In this document: positions 1-7,978 of the stretch, piece by piece
How the letters are laid out: the number at the start of each line of letters is the position of its first letter
How positions within the stretch are numbered: the stretch's first letter is position 1
NCBI RefSeq assembly: GCF_009669325.1
Contig: NZ_SZWE01000001.1
Span: 2,671,501-2,735,500 of the forward strand
DNA: 64,000 nt
Direction of reading: 5' to 3'
Origin: Roseovarius bejariae
GTDB taxonomy: Bacteria; Pseudomonadota; Alphaproteobacteria; Rhodobacterales; Rhodobacteraceae
Program-made: the position numbers and the translations under genes
The notes under the pieces: generated by a model
What the model saw: the letters and a program-made list of their open reading frames with translations, nothing else
What the model was told of the DNA's origin: nothing
Database searches by the model: none

Positions 1-787
1 GGCGGCGGTTGCGGCCTCGGCCGGGCGTGCGGAGGGGGCCAAGCACGCGGTGCGGGAGCCGGATTGGCAGGCGCTTTTCGCGGGTAAGCCGGTGAAGCGC
101 GTTCTGGCGCGGTGGATCATCGGCTGGACCAAGGCGCGGGTGCGCGACCGCGAGAACCTGAGGTTCGAACGCACACGGATTTTCGGCCATGCGCGGCGGG
201 TGTTTCTGGGGATTGGCCGCGAGTTGACAGCACGCGGGCACCTGGCCGCGCCGCGTGACGTGTTTCACCTGACCACGCAGGAGGTTCTGGGTGCCGTCGA
301 GGGGTTCAACCTGTCGCCGGATTTGAAGGGCATCGTGGCAATGCGGCAGGCCGAGGACGCGGCATCAAGCGGGCGGCCCGATCCGCCCGAGCGGATCGAG
401 GTACGAGGGCCTGCGATCCTGCCCCACTGGCAGGAGGACGAGGGCCCGCGCGACGACAGCCGTCGCAAAACCGGCACGGGCTGTTCGGCGGGGCAGGTGC
501 GGGCCAGGGCGCGGGTGATCCGCGATCCGCGCACCGAGGCGCTGGAGCCGGGCGATATTCTGGTTGCGCGGCATACCGACCCCGGCTGGATCGCGGTGTT
601 TTCCAATGCTTCGGCCATCGTGGTTGAGCGCGGCTCGCTTTTGTCGCACTCGGCGATCGTGGCGCGGGAGTTGGGCATTCCATGTGTTGTCGGCCTGAAG
701 GGCGCGACGCAGTGGATCGAGGACGGTGAGACATTGGCCGTCAACGGGGCCACGGGCGAAGTGGAGCGCGTTGATGACGGGAAGTGA
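1..787 (+). CDS. PEP synthase-like protein, C-terminal end (PEP-utilising mobile domain), partial
   Basis: The reading frame is open from the window edge, so only the last ~261 residues are visible. The end contains the swivelling phosphohistidine domain of PEP-utilising enzymes: a GDILVARHTDPGW strand, then LLSHSAIVARELGIP, which corresponds to the family motif G-x-T-S-H-A-A-I-V-A-R-E, with the phospho-accepting His. The preceding segment (NLRFERTRIFGHARRVF) resembles the linker region of PEP synthase and rifampin-phosphotransferase-like proteins, which transfer phosphate from ATP or PEP to a small molecule through this His. The substrate cannot be told. The stop codon lies 14 bases inside the next gene, so it is translationally coupled to the BtaA-like gene and is probably the first visible member of a five-gene operon. 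Whether the N-terminal ATP-grasp domain is present lies outside the window. Confidence 0.8.
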   Translation, partial: AAVAASAGRAEGAKHAVREPDWQALFAGKPVKRVLARWIIGWTKARVRDRENLRFERTRIFGHARRVFLGIGRELTARGHLAAPRDVFHLTTQEVLGAVEGFNLSPDLKGIVAMRQAEDAASSGRPDPPERIEVRGPAILPHWQEDEGPRDDSRRKTGTGCSAGQVRARARVIRDPRTEALEPGDILVARHTDPGWIAVFSNASAIVVERGSLLSHSAIVARELGIPCVVGLKGATQWIEDGETLAVNGATGEVERVDDGK

Positions 788-1874
788 GATCGAAAGCCGC
801 GCCGCGTTTGACCACATCCGCTATGCGCAACTCTGGGAAGATGCCGATGTGTTGACCCAAGGCTTGGGGGAACAAGCGGGCCAGACGCTGGTTTCGATTT
901 GCTCGGCGGGGGATAATGCACTGGCCATGCTGACGCTGGACCCCGCGAAGGTGGTGGTGGTGGACCTCTCCCCGGCGCAGATCGCCTGTTTGCGGGTGCG
1001 GATCGGGGCCTATCGGGCGTTGTCGCACGCGGAGTTTCTGGAACTCATGGGATCGCGGCCAAGTGCGCGGCGCGGCGCGCTTCTGGCGCGGGCTTGTGAG
1101 GGTTTGGATGCGGAAACACGCGCCTTTTGGGAGGATCTTGCACCCGAAGTCGAGGCGCATGGGCTTGGTGGTGTGGGTAAATTCGAACGCTATTTCCGCA
1201 TCTTCCGCCGCTGGCTTTTACCGCTTGTTCATTCGCGCCGGACCATCGCGGCGATATTCGAGCCGCGCGACCCCGAGGCGCGGGAAGAATTTTTTGACAA
1301 ACGCTTTAACACATGGCGTTGGCGGCTGTTGATGCGGGTCTTTTTCTCGCGTTTCGTCATGGGGCGGATGGGCCGTGACAAGGCGTTTTTCGACCATGTG
1401 GAGGGCAGCCCGGCACAGCATGTGGCGCGGCGGTTGCGCCATGCCGGGGTTGGGACCGACCCGTCGCAAAACCCATACCTGCACTGGATCATGACAGGCA
1501 CCCATGGTCCGGCGTTGCCGATGGCGTGGCGGGAAGAGCACTTCGAGGTGATCCGCGACAGGCTGGGCCGGTTGGACATTCGGCCCGGATCGTTGGAAGC
1601 CTTTGTTTCAACGGGGGAAAAGGCGCATGGGTTCAACCTTTCGGATATTTTCGAATACATGTCACCGGATGTGTTTGCGCAGGTTTACGGTACGATCCTC
1701 GGGGCATCGGCACCGGGGGCGCGGCTGGTTTATTGGAACATGATGGCGCCGCGCCGGGTGCCCAAGGTTTATGCCGACCGGGTCGAAAGCTTGAGCGACC
1801 TTGAGGATCGCCTGAAGGCACAGGACATGGCGTTTTTCTATTCCGATTTCGTTGTGGAAGAGGTGCGCGGGTGA
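774..1874 (+). CDS. DUF3419 / BtaA-like S-adenosylmethionine 3-amino-3-carboxypropyl transferase
   Basis: 366 residues, read from the ATG at 774, which overlaps the previous stop by 14 bases; the frame stays open further upstream but only inside the previous gene. The N-terminus (FDHIRYAQLWEDADVL, then LVSICSAGDNALAML and VVVVDLSPAQIACL) matches the DUF3419/BtaA family, in which a Rossmann-like SAM-binding fold moves the 3-amino-3-carboxypropyl group of SAM to diacylglycerol as the first step of betaine-lipid synthesis. SICSAGDN is the SAM-binding loop and VVDLSPAQ the strand-2 acidic end. The protein is shorter than characterised BtaA (about 400 residues), and no BtaB-type N-methyltransferase is adjacent, so the acceptor may differ. 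The last four bases (GTGA) overlap the next start. Family call is firm; the actual acceptor is unknown. Confidence 0.8.
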   Translation: MTGSEIESRAAFDHIRYAQLWEDADVLTQGLGEQAGQTLVSICSAGDNALAMLTLDPAKVVVVDLSPAQIACLRVRIGAYRALSHAEFLELMGSRPSARRGALLARACEGLDAETRAFWEDLAPEVEAHGLGGVGKFERYFRIFRRWLLPLVHSRRTIAAIFEPRDPEAREEFFDKRFNTWRWRLLMRVFFSRFVMGRMGRDKAFFDHVEGSPAQHVARRLRHAGVGTDPSQNPYLHWIMTGTHGPALPMAWREEHFEVIRDRLGRLDIRPGSLEAFVSTGEKAHGFNLSDIFEYMSPDVFAQVYGTILGASAPGARLVYWNMMAPRRVPKVYADRVESLSDLEDRLKAQDMAFFYSDFVVEEVRG

Positions 1875-3194
1875 GCGTGGCGGTGCAAATCGGTTTGGCG
1901 GTCGCTTCGGTTGCCGTGTTGCTGGGGCTGATGGCGCTTGTCCGCAAGGGAGCACGTGCCATGGGCCTTGGCTCCGAGGTGCAGAGGAAACTGGTGCATG
2001 TGGGCACCGGGCTGTATGCGCTGACCCTGCCCTGGCTGTTCCCGGAGCGCTGGCCTGTTTACATGCTGATCGGACTGACGCTGGCCGTGATGCTGCTGCT
2101 GCGCCTGCCGCGCTTTGCCAATGGGATCGGCGGGGCGCTGCATGGGGTTGAGCGCCGGTCCTACGGGGATGTCCTGTTGGCGGCCTCGGTGGGGCTGTGT
2201 TTCTTCTTTGCCAATGGTGATGCGCTTCTTTATGTGTTGCCGCTCGCGGTGCTGACGCTGGCCGATGCCGCCGCCGCGCTTGTTGGTACACGATATGCCA
2301 CGCGGCTTTACCGGGTCGAGGAGGGCTACAAGAGCGTTGAGGGCACGGTAGCATTTTCCCTTGTGACGCTGCTTTTGTCGATCATCTGCCTGATGTTTCT
2401 GGTCGACCTGCCGCCGGGGAACATCCTTGCGCTGTCCGTGATGGTTACCGGCTTTGCCTCGTTGGTCGAGGCGCAAAGCTGGCGCGGGTTCGACAACCTG
2501 TTCCTGCCGCTTGGCCTGTTGGTTTTCCTGTCGGTGCATGTCGATAGCAACCTTGTGGAACTGGTTGTTTTCGCGGTGCTTTTCCTGATCGCGATTGTAG
2601 GCTTTCGGCTGGTCGGAACGCGCGCGGGGCTAAGTGCGCATGCCTGCCGGGTTTACGTGGTGGCGATGTTTTTGGTGTTGGCCGTGACCGCGCCACAAAA
2701 CGCTCTGCTGCCTGCCTTGGTCCTGTTGTCGCATGCCTGGGCCAAGGTTCAGGCGCCGGGGCAGGATGACCATGGCGATCTGGATGTCGTGGCGGCTCTG
2801 GCGATCATCAGCTTTGGCTGGCTGGCTTTGGGCGATGCCACGGGATGGAGTGCGATTGGCTTTTACGGATTGACCGCGATGGGAATGACGATGGGGTTGT
2901 CGGTGATCGCGCTCTGTGGGCATCTCCCATGGATCATACTGATTTCACTGGGCCTTTTGGGGTTGCGTGAGGCCGTTATCGTAGTGAATTCGGACGCCTC
3001 GAACTGGGCAGAGCCCTTGGGGGGGGCTCGCCGGGGCGACGTTGGTGTTGACGGCGCTCATGGCCAAGTTTTGGCCATGGGCCTTTGCCAGCGACCGGGT
3101 TTTGAAGTTAACCCTCTTGTCGCTGTTTTTTCCATTGATTGCATATATTTACATGACATTCACACAGGTCGCTGATGTAGGGGTGCCAAGATGA
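1871..3194 (+). CDS. phytol/dolichol-kinase-like membrane protein, frameshifted in a G8 tract
   Basis: Starts with GTG overlapping the previous stop (GTGA). The first ~200 residues carry signatures of the SEC59/DGK1/VTE5 family of CTP-dependent polyprenol and phytol kinases: RKLVHVGTGLYAL near residue 40, LTLADAAAALVGTRYA near 130 and KSVEGTVAF near 155, set among many membrane helices. A second half of similar size is also polytopic, making this about twice the usual length. As read, the frame ends at 3175 with a hydrophilic tail. If one G is removed from the run of eight at 3019-3026, the protein continues as two further hydrophobic helices and stops at 3192-3194, overlapping the next ATG as ATGA, like the other junctions of this operon. 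The tract is therefore a sequencing indel, a phase-variable switch or a true mutation. Likely role: phosphorylation of a prenol or lipid alcohol in the membrane. Confidence 0.75.
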
Positions 3195-4033
3195 CGAAAG
3201 AGGTTTTGAAGACAGATGGCGGGCGCCTGACATTGTATTGGGATGCACCTGAATGGGATGGCGTGCCAACGGTGGCAATTGGAGACATCGCCTTTCGGTC
3301 GCGCGCAGACGGGAAGCAGATTTTGCAACAAGCCATTGATATGGCAGGGGAAAAAGGCTTCGACCGTATGGTCGGGCCAATGTCGGGGGATACATGGCAT
3401 AGTTACCGTTTCGTCAGTGAAAGCGACGGGAGTCCGGCGTTCTTGATGGAGCCCAAGGAGATGCCGGAGGCGCGGGCGGCGTTTCATGCGGCGGGGTTTT
3501 CGGTGATTGGGCGCTATTTCTCGGCGCGGCAATCCCTTGAGGACATCGGCGCGTCGCCGCCGGAGAGTGAAGGGTTTCGGATCGAGGCATGGGATGGGGC
3601 CGATCCAGAAAACTTGTTCCGGCAGGTGTTCCATGTGTCCTCTCAAGCTTTTGAAAACAATGCCTTTTATAAGCCGATCACGGTGGAGCAGTTCCTTACG
3701 ATGTATATGCCCATCGTGCCGATGCTCAAGAAAGAGCTGATCGTTTTCGCCCGAACGCCCGAGGGGGAATTGGCGGGGTTCCTGTTTGCTATTCCTGACT
3801 ATGCGCATGGGCCGGAGAGTGAAACCGTGATCCTGAAAACCTATGCCAGCCTTGTGCGCGGGGCCGGGCGGGCCTTGGTGCATGCCTGTCAAACTGCGGC
3901 TAAGTCATTGGGGTACAAGCATTTAATCCATGGTTTGATCCATGATGCCAACCAATCCGCTGAGCGCAGTGAACAGGAAGGTGGCAAGATTTTTCGCCGC
4001 TACGAATTGTTGGGTCTTGAGCTAAATGACTGA
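3191..4033 (+). CDS. GNAT-like acyltransferase-fold protein
   Basis: 280 residues. The central stretch RMVGPMSGDTWHSYRFV followed by FLMEPKEMPEARAAFHAAGF is typical of a group of GNAT-fold proteins in which a G-P-(M/I)-x-G-D-T-W-H-S-Y-R signature precedes a comment-like E-P-x(n)-A-A-G-F segment; C-terminal AHGPESETVILKTYASLVRGAGRALVHA fits the acetyl-CoA pyrophosphate-binding loop region (R-G-A-G-R-A). No secretion signal or membrane segment. The start overlaps the corrected stop of the upstream kinase (ATGA), and its own stop overlaps the downstream ligase by eight bases, so it is embedded in the operon. A reasonable guess is transfer of the acyl group activated by the neighbouring adenylating enzyme, but neither donor nor acceptor can be read from the sequence. 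Confidence 0.6.
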   Translation: MTKEVLKTDGGRLTLYWDAPEWDGVPTVAIGDIAFRSRADGKQILQQAIDMAGEKGFDRMVGPMSGDTWHSYRFVSESDGSPAFLMEPKEMPEARAAFHAAGFSVIGRYFSARQSLEDIGASPPESEGFRIEAWDGADPENLFRQVFHVSSQAFENNAFYKPITVEQFLTMYMPIVPMLKKELIVFARTPEGELAGFLFAIPDYAHGPESETVILKTYASLVRGAGRALVHACQTAAKSLGYKHLIHGLIHDANQSAERSEQEGGKIFRRYELLGLELND

Positions 4034-5444
4034 TTTGCTTGATCATTTCGACGCGGCCGTGGCACGGCACCCGGAGCGGGTGGCGATTGTCGATGGCAGC
4101 GGCCGGGAGGTCACGTTTCAGGAATTACAAAGCCTTTCCAGAGGGTTAGCGGAAGAATGGCGGGCCAAGGGAGTGCGACCCGGCGACCGGGTGCTTATGG
4201 CAATGGGGGTTAACGTCGAGCTTTATGCCAGCCTTGCCGCCCTGTGGTCCTTGGGGGCGACGGTGGTTTTGCCGGAACCTGCCATGGGGCTGAAGGGGCT
4301 GCGCCATGCGGTGGCGACGACCAAGCCAAAAGCCTTTTGTGCCAAGGGGTTATACAGGTTCCTGAAGTTGATTATACCGGGGCTTTGGAGGGTGCCGGTT
4401 TTGCGCCCCCACGCGCCAGCGGAGGTAACAGAGGTTAAGGAACGGGTTAACGAGGCGGTGGCGCTCATCTCGTTTACCTCGGGGACCACGGGGGCACCCA
4501 AGGCGATCCCGCGGAGCCATTTTTTCCTTATGGCACAGTATGATGCGGTCGCGTCGATCTTGGAGAGCGAGGGGGAAGAGCGCGATCTGGTGGCATTCCC
4601 TGTCTTTACCTTGGTTAACCTTGCGGCGGGGCGAACCTCGATCCTGCCCTGTTGGAAAATGAGCCGATTGGCGCGCCTGACGCCGGCGCGATTGGGGGAT
4701 TGGTTGCGCGAAACCGGGGCGACACGGGCGCTTTTACCGCCGTCGCTGGCGGGGCTTTTACCCGGGGCGGGCAAGACCGGCCTGCGCCATGTGTTCACCG
4801 GGGGCGGTCCTGTTTTTCCCAATGTTGTCAAACGCCTGCAAGATGATCTTGGGGTTGATGTGACCTGTGTCTATGGCTCCACCGAGGCGGAGCCGATTGC
4901 CCATCTGAAGGGCCAAGAGATCGACGCAGAGGACATGGAGGAAATGGCGCGGGGGGCGGGCCTTTTGGTGGGCCGCCCGGTGCCGGAGGTGCGATTAAGG
5001 ATTTGTGAGGGTGAGATCGAAGTCACCGGAGATCACGTTAACAAGTCTTACCTCGACCCCGCGCAGACCCGTGAGAACAAGATTTTCGAGGGGGACGACG
5101 TTTGGCACCGCACGGGGGATGCCGGGCGCTTGGACACGCAAGGGCGCTTGTGGCTTTGGGGTCGGGTGGGCGATGAGGTTGACGGGCCGGATGGGCCGAT
5201 CCACCCTTTCGTCGTGGAAGTGGCGGCAGCCGGGTGGAAAGGTGTAACCCATTGTGCATTAATGGAAAAATCAAATTCCCCGGTCCTGCTGATCGAGGGT
5301 GAGCGGCGGTATTTGCCAGAGTGGAAAGAGGCCGCGCGGACCTTGGGGATCGAAAAACTGGAGCTTGTATCGGCCATGCCGATGGATGCGCGGCACCATT
5401 CCAAGATCGACCGGGTGAAACTGGCCCGGATGCTGAATGGTTAA
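4026..5444 (+). CDS. AMP-forming acyl-CoA synthetase / fatty-acid ligase family protein
   Basis: 472 residues of the ANL adenylating superfamily. The P-loop motif ISFTSGTTGAPKAIPRSH (around residue 150) and VTCVYGSTEAEPI (around 280, the aromatic-substrate/ATP motif), then WHRTGDAGRLDTQGRLWLWGR (around 365; the conserved TGD Asp) are all present. The C-terminal domain ends HHSKIDRVKLARML, whose SKIDR replaces the usual G-K-I-x-R/K catalytic lysine motif. It is short for the family. It adenylates a carboxylate, which is then passed on to CoA, a carrier or an amine; in this operon the GNAT-like protein or the lipid products of the BtaA-like and kinase genes are possible partners. The TAA stop lies inside the first arm of a palindromic repeat. 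Fatty acid-type substrate is an inference only. Confidence 0.8.
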   Translation: MTDLLDHFDAAVARHPERVAIVDGSGREVTFQELQSLSRGLAEEWRAKGVRPGDRVLMAMGVNVELYASLAALWSLGATVVLPEPAMGLKGLRHAVATTKPKAFCAKGLYRFLKLIIPGLWRVPVLRPHAPAEVTEVKERVNEAVALISFTSGTTGAPKAIPRSHFFLMAQYDAVASILESEGEERDLVAFPVFTLVNLAAGRTSILPCWKMSRLARLTPARLGDWLRETGATRALLPPSLAGLLPGAGKTGLRHVFTGGGPVFPNVVKRLQDDLGVDVTCVYGSTEAEPIAHLKGQEIDAEDMEEMARGAGLLVGRPVPEVRLRICEGEIEVTGDHVNKSYLDPAQTRENKIFEGDDVWHRTGDAGRLDTQGRLWLWGRVGDEVDGPDGPIHPFVVEVAAAGWKGVTHCALMEKSNSPVLLIEGERRYLPEWKEAARTLGIEKLELVSAMPMDARHHSKIDRVKLARMLNG

Positions 5445-5660: not shown

Positions 5661-5736
5661 AGGGGCGCTGCCCCTTGGTTGAAAATGGGATTTTCAACCC
5701 ACCCCGGGATACTTGTGAAAAGAAGAAAGGGGGGCG
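5661..5736 (+). promoter_or_regulatory. hairpins and Roseobacter-type leader before kbl
   Basis: The stretch carries a hairpin AGGGGC-gct-GCCCCT (5661-5675), directly followed by a perfect 10-bp stem GGTTGAAAAT-ggg-ATTTTCAACC (5677-5699), then CCCCGGGATACTTGTGAAAAG and a strong purine-rich ribosome binding site (AAGAAAGGGGGG) before the kbl ATG at 5739. Related purine-rich leader-like strings recur near 46763-46845 and 50678-50704, and the GGGGCAGCGCCCCTGA half recurs near 46888. Neither stem is followed by a clear T run in the + direction, so structured 5' UTR is more likely than a terminator. The remaining 5527-5660 shows nothing recognisable. Confidence 0.45.
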
Positions 5737-5738
5737 TC

Positions 5739-6935
5739 ATGCGCGCATCCGAGAGGTTCGATCAGGATTTAGGCGCGCGGCTGAACGGGCTGCGCGAAGA
5801 GGGGCTTTACAGGCGCGAGCGGGTGATCACCTCGATGCAGGCCGGAGAGGTTTCGTTGGAGGGGGGAGCGGAGGTGGTGAACCTGTGCGCCAACAACTAC
5901 CTTGGCTTGGCCGATGATGCGCGGGTGATCGCGGCGGCGCATGAGGCCTTGGACCGCTATGGGTTCGGGATGGCCAGCGTGCGGTTCATTTGCGGCACCC
6001 AAGAGGAACACAAGGCGCTGGAGGCGCGGATCGCGGCGTTTCTGGGGATGGAGGATGCGATCCTTTATGCGGCGGCGTTCGATGCCAACGCGGGGTTGTT
6101 TGAAACGCTTCTCGGGCCGGAGGATGCGATCATCTCGGATGCGCTCAATCATGCGAGCATCATTGACGGGGTGCGTTTGTGCAAAGCGCAGCGGTATCGC
6201 TATGCCAATTCGGATATGGCGGACCTTGAGCGCTGTTTGCAGGAGGCGCAGGGCGCGCGGCATCGGATGATCGCCACCGACGGGGTGTTTTCCATGGACG
6301 GTTATATCGCCAAGCTGGAGGCGATTTGCGATCTGGCCGAACGCTATGACGCGATGGTCATGGTGGATGATTGCCATGCCACCGGGTTTCTGGGCGAGAC
6401 CGGCCGGGGGAGCCATGAGCATTGCGGGGTCATGGGGCGGGTGGATATCCTGACAGGGACACTTGGCAAGGCGCTTGGCGGGGCCTCGGGCGGGTATACC
6501 GCGGCCAGTGCGCGGGTGGTGGATTGGCTCAGGCAACGCTCGCGGCCGTATTTGTTTTCCAACACGCTGGCGCCGGTGATTGCCGGGGCATCCCTGACGG
6601 TGTTCGATTTGTTGGAGAGCGAGGGTGCGGCGATGCGCGCGCGGCTTTGGGAGAATGCGGCGTATTTCCGCGAGCGGATGGGGGCCTTGGGTTTCGAGTT
6701 GTTGCCGGGAGAGCATGCGATCATTCCGGTGATGTTGCGCGACCCGAAGCTGGCGCAGGACATGGCGGCGCGCTTGGGCGAGCGGGGGGTTTACGTGACC
6801 GCCTTCAGCTTCCCGGTGGTGCCGAAGGGGCAGGACCGGATCAGGACACAGATGAGCGCGGCGGTCACGCGCGAGATGCTGGATCGGGCGATTGATGCCT
6901 TCGAGGCGGTGGGCCGTGAACTGGGGGTGATCTGA
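5739..6935 (+). CDS. kbl: glycine C-acetyltransferase (2-amino-3-ketobutyrate CoA ligase)
   Basis: 398 residues, the same length as the E. coli enzyme. A PLP-dependent alpha-oxoamine synthase: it cleaves 2-amino-3-ketobutyrate with CoA into glycine and acetyl-CoA in the cytosol. Visible signatures are [12 protein letters not shown] (about 49-60), [16 protein letters not shown] (80-95), [10 protein letters not shown] (210-219, PLP-contacting Asp and His) and [15 protein letters not shown] with the Schiff-base lysine at K244. The start is the ATG at 5739 with a strong AGAAAGGGGGG site; an upstream in-frame extension is just leader sequence. The stop shares one base with the tdh start, so the two enzymes are co-translated and catalyse consecutive steps of threonine catabolism. 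Confidence 0.96.
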
Positions 6936-7978
6936 TGGAAAACCGGATGAAGGCGCTGGTCAAGGCGCGGCCCGAGCCGGGGCTTTGGATGGAGCATGTG
7001 CCGGTGCCCGAGGTTGGCCCCGGTGAGGTGCTGATCAAGGTGCGCAAATCGGCGATATGCGGCACGGATGTGCATATCTGGAAATGGGATGAGTTCAGCG
7101 CCAAGACGGTGCCGGTGCCCATGGTGGTGGGCCATGAGTTCATGGGCGAGGTGGTGGATTGCGGGCCGGGGGCCGGGAAGTACCACCTTGGCCAGCGGGT
7201 GAGCGGCGAGGGGCATATCGTGTGCAATGCCTGCCGCAATTGCCGTGCGGGGCGGGGGCATTTGTGCCGCAATACCAAGGGGGTGGGCGTGCAGAGGCCG
7301 GGGAGTTTCGCGGAATACATCTGTTTGCCGGAAAGCAACGTGGTGCCGATCCCCGATGACATCCCCGACGAGATCGCGGCGATTTTCGACCCCTTCGGCA
7401 ATGCGGTGCATACCGCGTTGAGTTTCGACCTGGTGGGCGAGGATGTTCTGGTGACCGGCGCGGGGCCGATCGGCATCATGGGCGCGCTGGTGGCGCAGCG
7501 GGCCGGGGCGCGCAAGGTGGTGATCACCGATATAGCCCCCTATCGGCTGGAGCTGGCGCGCAAGATGGGGGTGCAGCACGTGGTGGATACCTCGGCGGTG
7601 ACCCTGCGCGAGGTGATGTCGGATATCGGCATGAGTGAGGGGTTCGACGTGGGGCTTGAGATGTCGGGGGCGGCGCCGGCGATGCAGCAGATGATCGCGC
7701 GGATGAACAACGGCGGGAAGGTGGCGTTGCTCGGGATCGCGCCGACGGCATTCCCCGTGGATTGGAACACGGTGATTTTCAAGATGCTGCATATCAAGGG
7801 CATCTATGGCCGCGAGATGTACGAGACGTGGTACAAGATGATCGCGCTGGTGCAATCGGGGCTGGATGTTTCGGGGGTGATTACCCATCGGATCGGGATT
7901 GATGAGTTCGAGGATGGCTTTGCCGCCATGATCTCGGGGCAGTCGGGGAAGGTGGTGATGGATTGGGGGGGCGCCTGA
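6935..7978 (+). CDS. tdh: L-threonine 3-dehydrogenase
   Basis: 347 residues of the zinc-dependent medium-chain dehydrogenase family. It oxidises L-threonine to 2-amino-3-ketobutyrate with NAD, supplying the substrate of the upstream kbl product. Catalytic-zinc residues C42 ([11 protein letters not shown]), H67 and E68 (VVGHEF) are present, as is the structural-zinc lobe with four cysteines ([15 protein letters not shown]). The NAD fold is [45 protein letters not shown] is characteristic of Tdh rather than general alcohol dehydrogenases. TGATG junction with kbl. The next gene converges from the opposite strand 15 bases downstream, with no clear terminator between them. Confidence 0.95.

Follow-up and report, generated by a model that had tools for sequence, protein, structure and literature searches.

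A conserved seven-gene operon of the Rhodobacteraceae that may direct synthesis of an N-acylated aminocarboxypropyl prenyl conjugate

In a review of S-adenosylmethionine (SAM) chemistry, BtaA is named among the aminocarboxypropyl transferases that act on small molecules, and the word DUF3419 does not occur in its main text (PMC10491745). A listing of the open-access literature gave four papers containing that word. A gene setting with LptF/LptG, nucleoside triphosphate (NTP)-transferase and serine palmitoyltransferase genes is described for the ceramide synthase (CerS) CC_1154 of Caulobacter (PMC11324152). Here we describe an operon that joins a DUF3419 protein to a distant relative of the acyltransferases from such sphingolipid clusters. 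It lies at the start of a 64,000-nucleotide stretch of Roseovarius bejariae DNA (the window), which corresponds to positions 2671501-2735500 of contig NZ_SZWE01000001.1 in a 3.5-Mb genome, and consists of seven genes, designated A to G, that are found in identical order in other genomes. We tentatively propose, with somewhat less than even confidence, that it encodes a dedicated, membrane-associated pathway whose product is an N-acylated aminocarboxypropyl conjugate of prenyl (or mevalonyl) type. The operon was not found described in the open-access literature searched, with some queries being narrow, one listing 12 of 5,105 entries and most subscription papers lying outside the search; the accessible parts of papers on glutamine lipids (PMC6298996) and on DXR-II (PMC3847144) likewise contain no description of it.

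The features of the operon are as follows; positions are those of the window, which equal the positions in locus L002 minus 11500.

L002 7646-8926 (likely start near 7661), + strand, outside the window and upstream of B: gene A, 3-hydroxy-3-methylglutaryl coenzyme A (HMG-CoA) reductase
L002 8923-9834, + strand, outside the window and upstream of C: gene B, UbiA prenyltransferase
L002 9831-12287, window 1..787, + strand: gene C, 818-residue phosphohistidine phosphotransferase with a rifampicin-phosphotransferase-like layout
774..1874, + strand: gene D, DUF3419 (BtaA-like) protein of a separate clade, putative SAM-dependent 3-amino-3-carboxypropyl transferase
1871..3194 (end taken from relatives), + strand: gene E, polytopic phytol/polyprenol-kinase-like protein
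3019..3026, + strand: run of eight G within E, site of a frame break with respect to intact relatives
3191..4033, + strand: gene F, tandem Gcn5-related N-acetyltransferase (GNAT), putative N-acyltransferase distantly related to ceramide-synthase-type GNATs
4026..5444, + strand: gene G, AMP-forming acyl/acid ligase, most similar to PRK09274 and to OleC beta-lactone synthetases

A seven-gene unit with conserved order

Genes A to G form a unit of ca. 9.3 kb of overlapping genes on one strand. The window edge truncates C, leaving inside only the last 261 of its 818 residues and placing its start ca. 1.67 kb upstream, and genes A and B are joined to it there by head-to-tail overlaps of 4 bases each. 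The original prediction, made from the window alone, had described a five-gene operon: its five genes are in place, but they are not the whole unit. Its overlaps of 14 bases between C and D (stop at 787, start at 774), 4 bases between D and E (stop at 1874, start at 1871) and 8 bases between F and G (stop at 4033, start at 4026) were confirmed by the reading frames, and the 4-base overlap that it had assumed between E and F is the one mostly seen in relatives with an intact E.

Conservation of the genes together in other genomes, by which the original prediction had asked to be judged, is strongly borne out: all seven genes are present in identical order and on one strand in 16 of the 18 carrier genomes, from 12 genera, so that the arrangement is not due to chance. 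The remaining two carriers (G196 and G147) are cut by contig ends, their visible part keeping the order from C to G, with F of G147 matched in two pieces; A is cut by contig ends in a further two of the 16 (G079 and G144). In G013, A (L024 2282-3558) was matched in two frames and may be broken or misassembled. The named carriers include the marine genera Ruegeria and Lentibacter. A Roseovarius metagenome-assembled genome (L019) has a close copy of the locus, with 76-97% protein identity over nine genes, and in Roseinatronobacter sp. S2 genes B to G adjoin the start of a plasmid record.

In searches with F, matches came from 14 of the 198 family genomes, its own included, and over threshold from 6 of 79 of the genus, five of them strong; the sixth genus match, which scored 43 bits, is another GNAT, of CerS type. 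A scan of genome contigs with F returned one locus, from the same record as G615. In samples of the wider groups, D found one strong match (its own) and weak BtaA-type matches in 29 genomes among 398 of the phylum, E found its own genome and one stand-alone kinase (G533) in the phylum, and F found its own genome and six weak matches of at most 48 bits among 289 of the class, of which the two inspected are CerS-type loci. G533 was rejected as a further carrier, since none of the other operon genes occurs within the 19 kb read. The family is, nevertheless, not a strict limit for these genes, because a UbiA protein with 73% identity (P0209) is named from Roseibium (Stappiaceae).

Pairwise distance ranks of B, C, D and E agree with each other (Spearman 0.83-0.91 over 120 genome pairs, which are not independent and were compared without a shuffled control). 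For this comparison each gene was represented in each genome by a single tblastn piece, also where it is split, as A of G013 is, and both it and the order comparison left out G196 and G147 because of their contig ends. The protein alignments (A1 to A7) contain only L019 (= G615) among the same-genus carriers G615, G632, G647 and G650; A1 is without the window E, which is out of frame, and without L032, while A2-A7 lack L023, A3-A7 lack L032, A5-A7 lack L030, and A5 lacks L024 and L026 (reductase split or cut).

No flanking gene was common to more than three of 15 loci compared, with flanks of differing length, and the seven genes are therefore the unit. Among these 15 loci, no sphingolipid gene recurs, and no ketosynthase, nonribosomal peptide synthetase (NRPS), exporter or regulator occurs in more than three. 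As to the transporter genes that the original prediction had suggested looking for upstream, ATP-binding cassette (ABC)-transporter genes lie near three of the 15 loci, in differing positions. A scan for Pho-box-like sites 5′ of the reductase at 14 loci gave best scores of 8-10, against shuffled means of ca. 8.6-9.0, that is, nothing.

ABC-transporter genes, which may be chance neighbours, were noted at differing positions near four operon copies (L022 6949-7818, L028 2-2304, L031 16041-16697 and L127 10990-15858). In the window, the operon is followed by the ordinary genes kbl (glycine C-acetyltransferase, over cut-off) and tdh (threonine dehydrogenase), at 5730-7978, a pair that among the loci searched is found behind the operon otherwise only in L019/L120.

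The enzymes of the operon

Pfam and NCBIfam results are given as bits against curated cut-offs. Pfam assigned A to PF00368 (362 bits), B to PF01040 (50.1 bits, cut-off 34.2), C to PF01326 (161 bits) and PF00391 (91 bits), D to PF11899 (195 bits, cut-off 28.2), and G to PF00501 (126 bits); F scored marginally above the cut-off of PF00583 (20.8 against 20.7 bits).

In alignments with solved class I HMG-CoA reductases (6hr7 and 1dq8; human and archaeal-type chains), the product of A has the catalytic Glu, Lys, Asp and His in place. It scores 315 bits with the NADPH-type model TIGR00533 and 33 bits with the degradative NAD-type model TIGR00532, neither of them over cut-off. HMG-CoA synthase (PF01154) was found in none of 12 carriers, in a search whose control was positive in 7 of 14 known genomes, and mevalonate kinase (TIGR00549) was over cut-off in none of 16, with one weak match in G007; DXR, of the methylerythritol phosphate (MEP) route, is present in all 16. 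Gene A is thus an orphan reductase, with no detectable mevalonate-pathway partners in the carriers, and because of this and of the general presence of DXR its product most likely serves the operon, from a substrate whose possible origin is proposed below. HMG-CoA reductases were detected at E 1e-10 in 21 of the 398 phylum genomes, its own included, and the nearest outside relatives of A (ca. 51% identity) are in eight genomes of a single genus of another class (f53 g308, presumably Vibrio). Genes B, D, E and F occur in none of 14 reductase loci fetched from elsewhere in the phylum (of one of these, L092, only 4.6 kb), two of which (L093 and L094) show weak G-like matches. In seven loci of the genus f53 g308 (L086-L091 and L099) the other operon genes are absent, save for a weak C-like match ca. 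5 kb away in L091.

Gene B codes for a UbiA protein with two conserved acidic stretches, DExKDxxxD and ExxGVxxYS, a variant of the usual UbiA motifs. The product of C comprises an ATP-binding domain (PPDK_N), a middle domain and a phosphohistidine domain (PEP-utilizers), after which the protein ends; no third (phosphoenolpyruvate (PEP)/pyruvate) domain was seen by Pfam C-terminal to the histidine domain. Its nearest solved relatives, 5fbs, 5hv1 and 5hv2, were deposited as 'phosphoenolpyruvate synthase' and are rifampicin phosphotransferases; the phosphohistidine motif could be aligned with 5fbs, the invariant H773 of C matching the histidine of the family. Scores with models for RedH, PigC and rifampicin phosphotransferase are of 266-289 bits and do not reach the cut-offs. 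Since C has ATP and histidine domains only, we do not take it, from its domain layout, to be a PEP synthase. Of the PEP-utilising phosphohistidine phosphotransferase originally predicted, the phosphohistidine part therefore stands, but the domain layout speaks against the use of PEP.

Phylogenetic analysis of D separated 14 operon proteins, as one clade (support 100/100), from 30 BtaA-type proteins, as another (98/94). The branch is long, and in view of the tree program's warning about long-branch attraction its deeper placing is unsure. Twenty-eight columns are nearly fixed alike in both groups. There is no BtaB among the seven genes, the only part of the genome searched for it, while a BtaB-like motif was found just downstream of 26 of 29 BtaA-type genes, 17 of them having also a methyltransferase motif (with a loose pattern, used without control). 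The BtaA-family protein lacking BtaB of the original prediction was thus corroborated, and the tree that it had suggested as a check sets D apart from the BtaA-type proteins. A search of solved structures with D gave no match, and D is a putative aminocarboxypropyl transferase from SAM on the basis of its family.

Plasmids of Rhizobium and Shinella carry a six-gene cluster (L128 5856-12194 in CP041205.1, L130 1832-8161 and L131 1848-8161) with genes for a ketoacyl synthase III, a short-chain dehydrogenase/reductase, a metallo-beta-lactamase-type (MBL) hydrolase, an annotated CoF synthetase in which Pfam found no AMP-binding domain, a DUF3419 protein and a 368-residue hypothetical protein; the latter was considered as a relative of F and rejected (probability 0.1). 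This cluster is probably another undescribed pathway.

Protein E is of ca. 440 residues in its relatives, with a kinase-like N-terminal half that contains most of the invariant columns and a poorly conserved C-terminal half. Its first half and a 221-residue stand-alone protein share 34% identity over 186 residues, and 14 of the 58 listed relatives of the stand-alone E-like protein were named phytol kinase by the Joint Genome Institute (JGI). Family membership is assigned least surely for E among the operon enzymes. Searches of solved structures with E and F gave chance matches only.

Protein F (280 residues) could be matched by profile comparison to GNATs of 378-395 residues, with a probability of 98.1 and over 250 of 284 columns. 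These three comparators are called CerS-type by their gene setting: all three loci have two LptF/LptG genes each, an NTP-transferase gene lies just after the GNAT in two of them, and one (L126) also encodes a serine palmitoyltransferase that scores above its cut-off (835 against 670 bits). F is thus distantly related to GNATs of sphingolipid gene clusters, its fold being predicted, which strengthens the acylation step contained in the original prediction. The closest models to the product of G are PRK09274 (284 bits) and OleC (154 and 148 bits, against cut-offs of 900 and 850); G may either make the acyl-CoA used by F or form the beta-lactone of a beta-hydroxy acid, of which mevalonate would be one.

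Proposed pathway and alternative readings

In the pathway that we tentatively propose, A would reduce an acyl-CoA (in the simplest case HMG-CoA formed in leucine degradation) to an alcohol such as mevalonate, serving as a building block and not as an isoprenoid precursor. E would phosphorylate a prenyl-type alcohol, and B would transfer a prenyl group, drawn from the MEP pathway of the cell, onto an acceptor; C would pass phosphate from ATP, via its histidine, to an intermediate and so activate it. D would then add the 3-amino-3-carboxypropyl group of SAM, giving a homoserine-type amino acid head, G would activate an acid as acyl-AMP, and F would place the acyl chain on the amine. The more specific possibility of a new class of bacterial lipids, with a prenyl/mevalonate core and a SAM-derived homoserine head, N-acylated by a ceramide-synthase-like enzyme and with an HMG-CoA reductase recruited to supply a lipid building block in cells lacking a mevalonate pathway, appears to us doubtful. 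The prenyl-lipid product of the original prediction gained from the adjacent UbiA gene upstream; that the product is a lipid, we infer.

Several observations weigh against the proposed conjugate pathway, whose substrates, step order and product we infer throughout. B is over none of the NCBIfam subfamily cut-offs, and its single solved relative is a digeranylgeranylglyceryl phosphate (DGGGP) synthase, with a weak match (E 0.024). In NCBIfam, C scores best with models that carry the name PEP synthase (652 bits, cut-off 883), and Pfam gave no match beyond chance for E. The window copy of E leaves the frame of its relatives at the run of eight G, which may be a sequencing error or a real lesion. 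Since D and the BtaA-type proteins differ at 42 nearly fixed columns, including three gaps, the reaction of D may differ from that of BtaA, and G may not feed F, given its resemblance to OleC and PRK09274. Gene pairs involving A, F or G track each other more loosely than the rest (Spearman 0.53-0.72 over the 120 genome pairs), and some exchange or faster change of these three genes is therefore possible. Finally, a divergent pair of genes for a sulfotransferase (PF13469) and a cytochrome P450 (PF00067) lies directly upstream of the operon in three carriers, and is as compatible with a tailored small molecule as with a lipid:

L117 526-2888: sulfotransferase/P450 pair in G026
L118 361-2741: sulfotransferase/P450 pair in G161
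L119 471-2821: sulfotransferase/P450 pair in G006

A remnant of the sulfotransferase is found beside a fourth operon, in G013 (L111 16014-16202). The best scores of the three P450s are with terpene oxygenase models, below cut-offs, which fits an isoprenoid part in a lipid and in a small molecule alike.

These neighbours bear on the main rival explanation, which we regard as unlikely but serious: instead of a membrane lipid, the operon would make a small natural product, of meroterpenoid or beta-lactone-like type, that is tailored and may be secreted. In a detailed form of this idea, to which we give the same limited credence, G would activate or lactonise a beta-hydroxy acid, e.g., mevalonate, C would phosphorylate for a condensation as in PigC and RedH, and the P450 and sulfotransferase would decorate the product in some strains. 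The scores of G with OleC and PRK09274 and those of C with RedH, PigC and rifampicin phosphotransferase favor it, as do the patchy distribution of the operon and its plasmid copy in Roseinatronobacter sp. S2. However, G is far under the OleC cut-offs, lipids are the usual substrates of proteins such as E and B and of the relatives of D and F, and the ketosynthase, NRPS, exporter or regulator that might be looked for is not shared by more than three of the 15 loci.

We consider quite improbable a role in the salvage or breakdown of algal isoprenoids or of HMG/mevalonate, in which E would phosphorylate imported prenols for re-use by B. The phytol-kinase-like E shares its operon with a UbiA gene, an arrangement that recalls phytol salvage in plants, and several named carriers belong to marine genera; yet such a route would leave D, F and C without a function, A is far closer to the NADPH type than to the degradative type, and no uptake gene occurs in more than three of 15 loci. 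Synthesis of archaeal-type prenyl ether glycerolipids, with B as a DGGGP synthase, is suggested by the solved relative of B cited above and is very improbable, because a geranylgeranylglyceryl phosphate (GGGP) synthase/PcrB (PF01884) was over cut-off in none of the 16 carriers, with six weak partial matches below it. We find it hardly credible that the locus is a betaine-lipid operon for diacylglyceryl trimethylhomoserine (DGTS) with methylation done elsewhere: D belongs to the family of BtaA, but its clade stands apart at the end of a long branch, BtaB is missing from the operon, and the six further conserved genes would not be needed.

If the operon does make an N-acylated aminocarboxypropyl prenyl conjugate, this uncharted compound is produced by aquatic Rhodobacteraceae whose distribution is patchy but spans a broad range of taxa. 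The orphan HMG-CoA reductase would then have a function in bacteria with the other isoprenoid route, a DUF3419 protein would be active beyond betaine lipids, and acyltransferases of the ceramide-synthase type would be seen to accept a further substrate. Standard annotation misses this pathway, since in the one annotated record seen, that of Roseinatronobacter sp. S2, E and F are labelled only 'hypothetical protein'.

Comparison with described systems

The enzyme families of the operon are known, and their combination matches no described system that we recognised. Gene A shares with class I HMG-CoA reductases the catalytic domain and the four catalytic residues, differing in that mevalonate-pathway partners were not found in its carriers. 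C resembles rifampicin phosphotransferase (Rph), PigC and RedH in its ATP-binding, middle and phosphohistidine domains and in its aligned catalytic histidine, whereas it is below all curated cut-offs and its best models bear the name of PEP synthase. The adenylating enzymes OleC and PRK09274 are the nearest to G, which is nevertheless below their cut-offs, and the operon lacks an OleA-type thiolase. F aligns over 250 columns with GNATs of the kind of cluster described for CerS of Caulobacter, CC_1154 itself not being in the alignment, but it is of 280 instead of 378-395 residues and lies outside any sphingolipid gene cluster. With respect to the BtaA/BtaB pathway, D shares the DUF3419 family and the 28 nearly fixed columns, and it differs in its 42 nearly fixed differences, its separate clade, the lack of BtaB and its seven-gene operon. 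The rhizobial cluster, in which all the other genes are different, has in common with the operon a DUF3419 gene without BtaB next door, set in a conserved multi-gene cluster.

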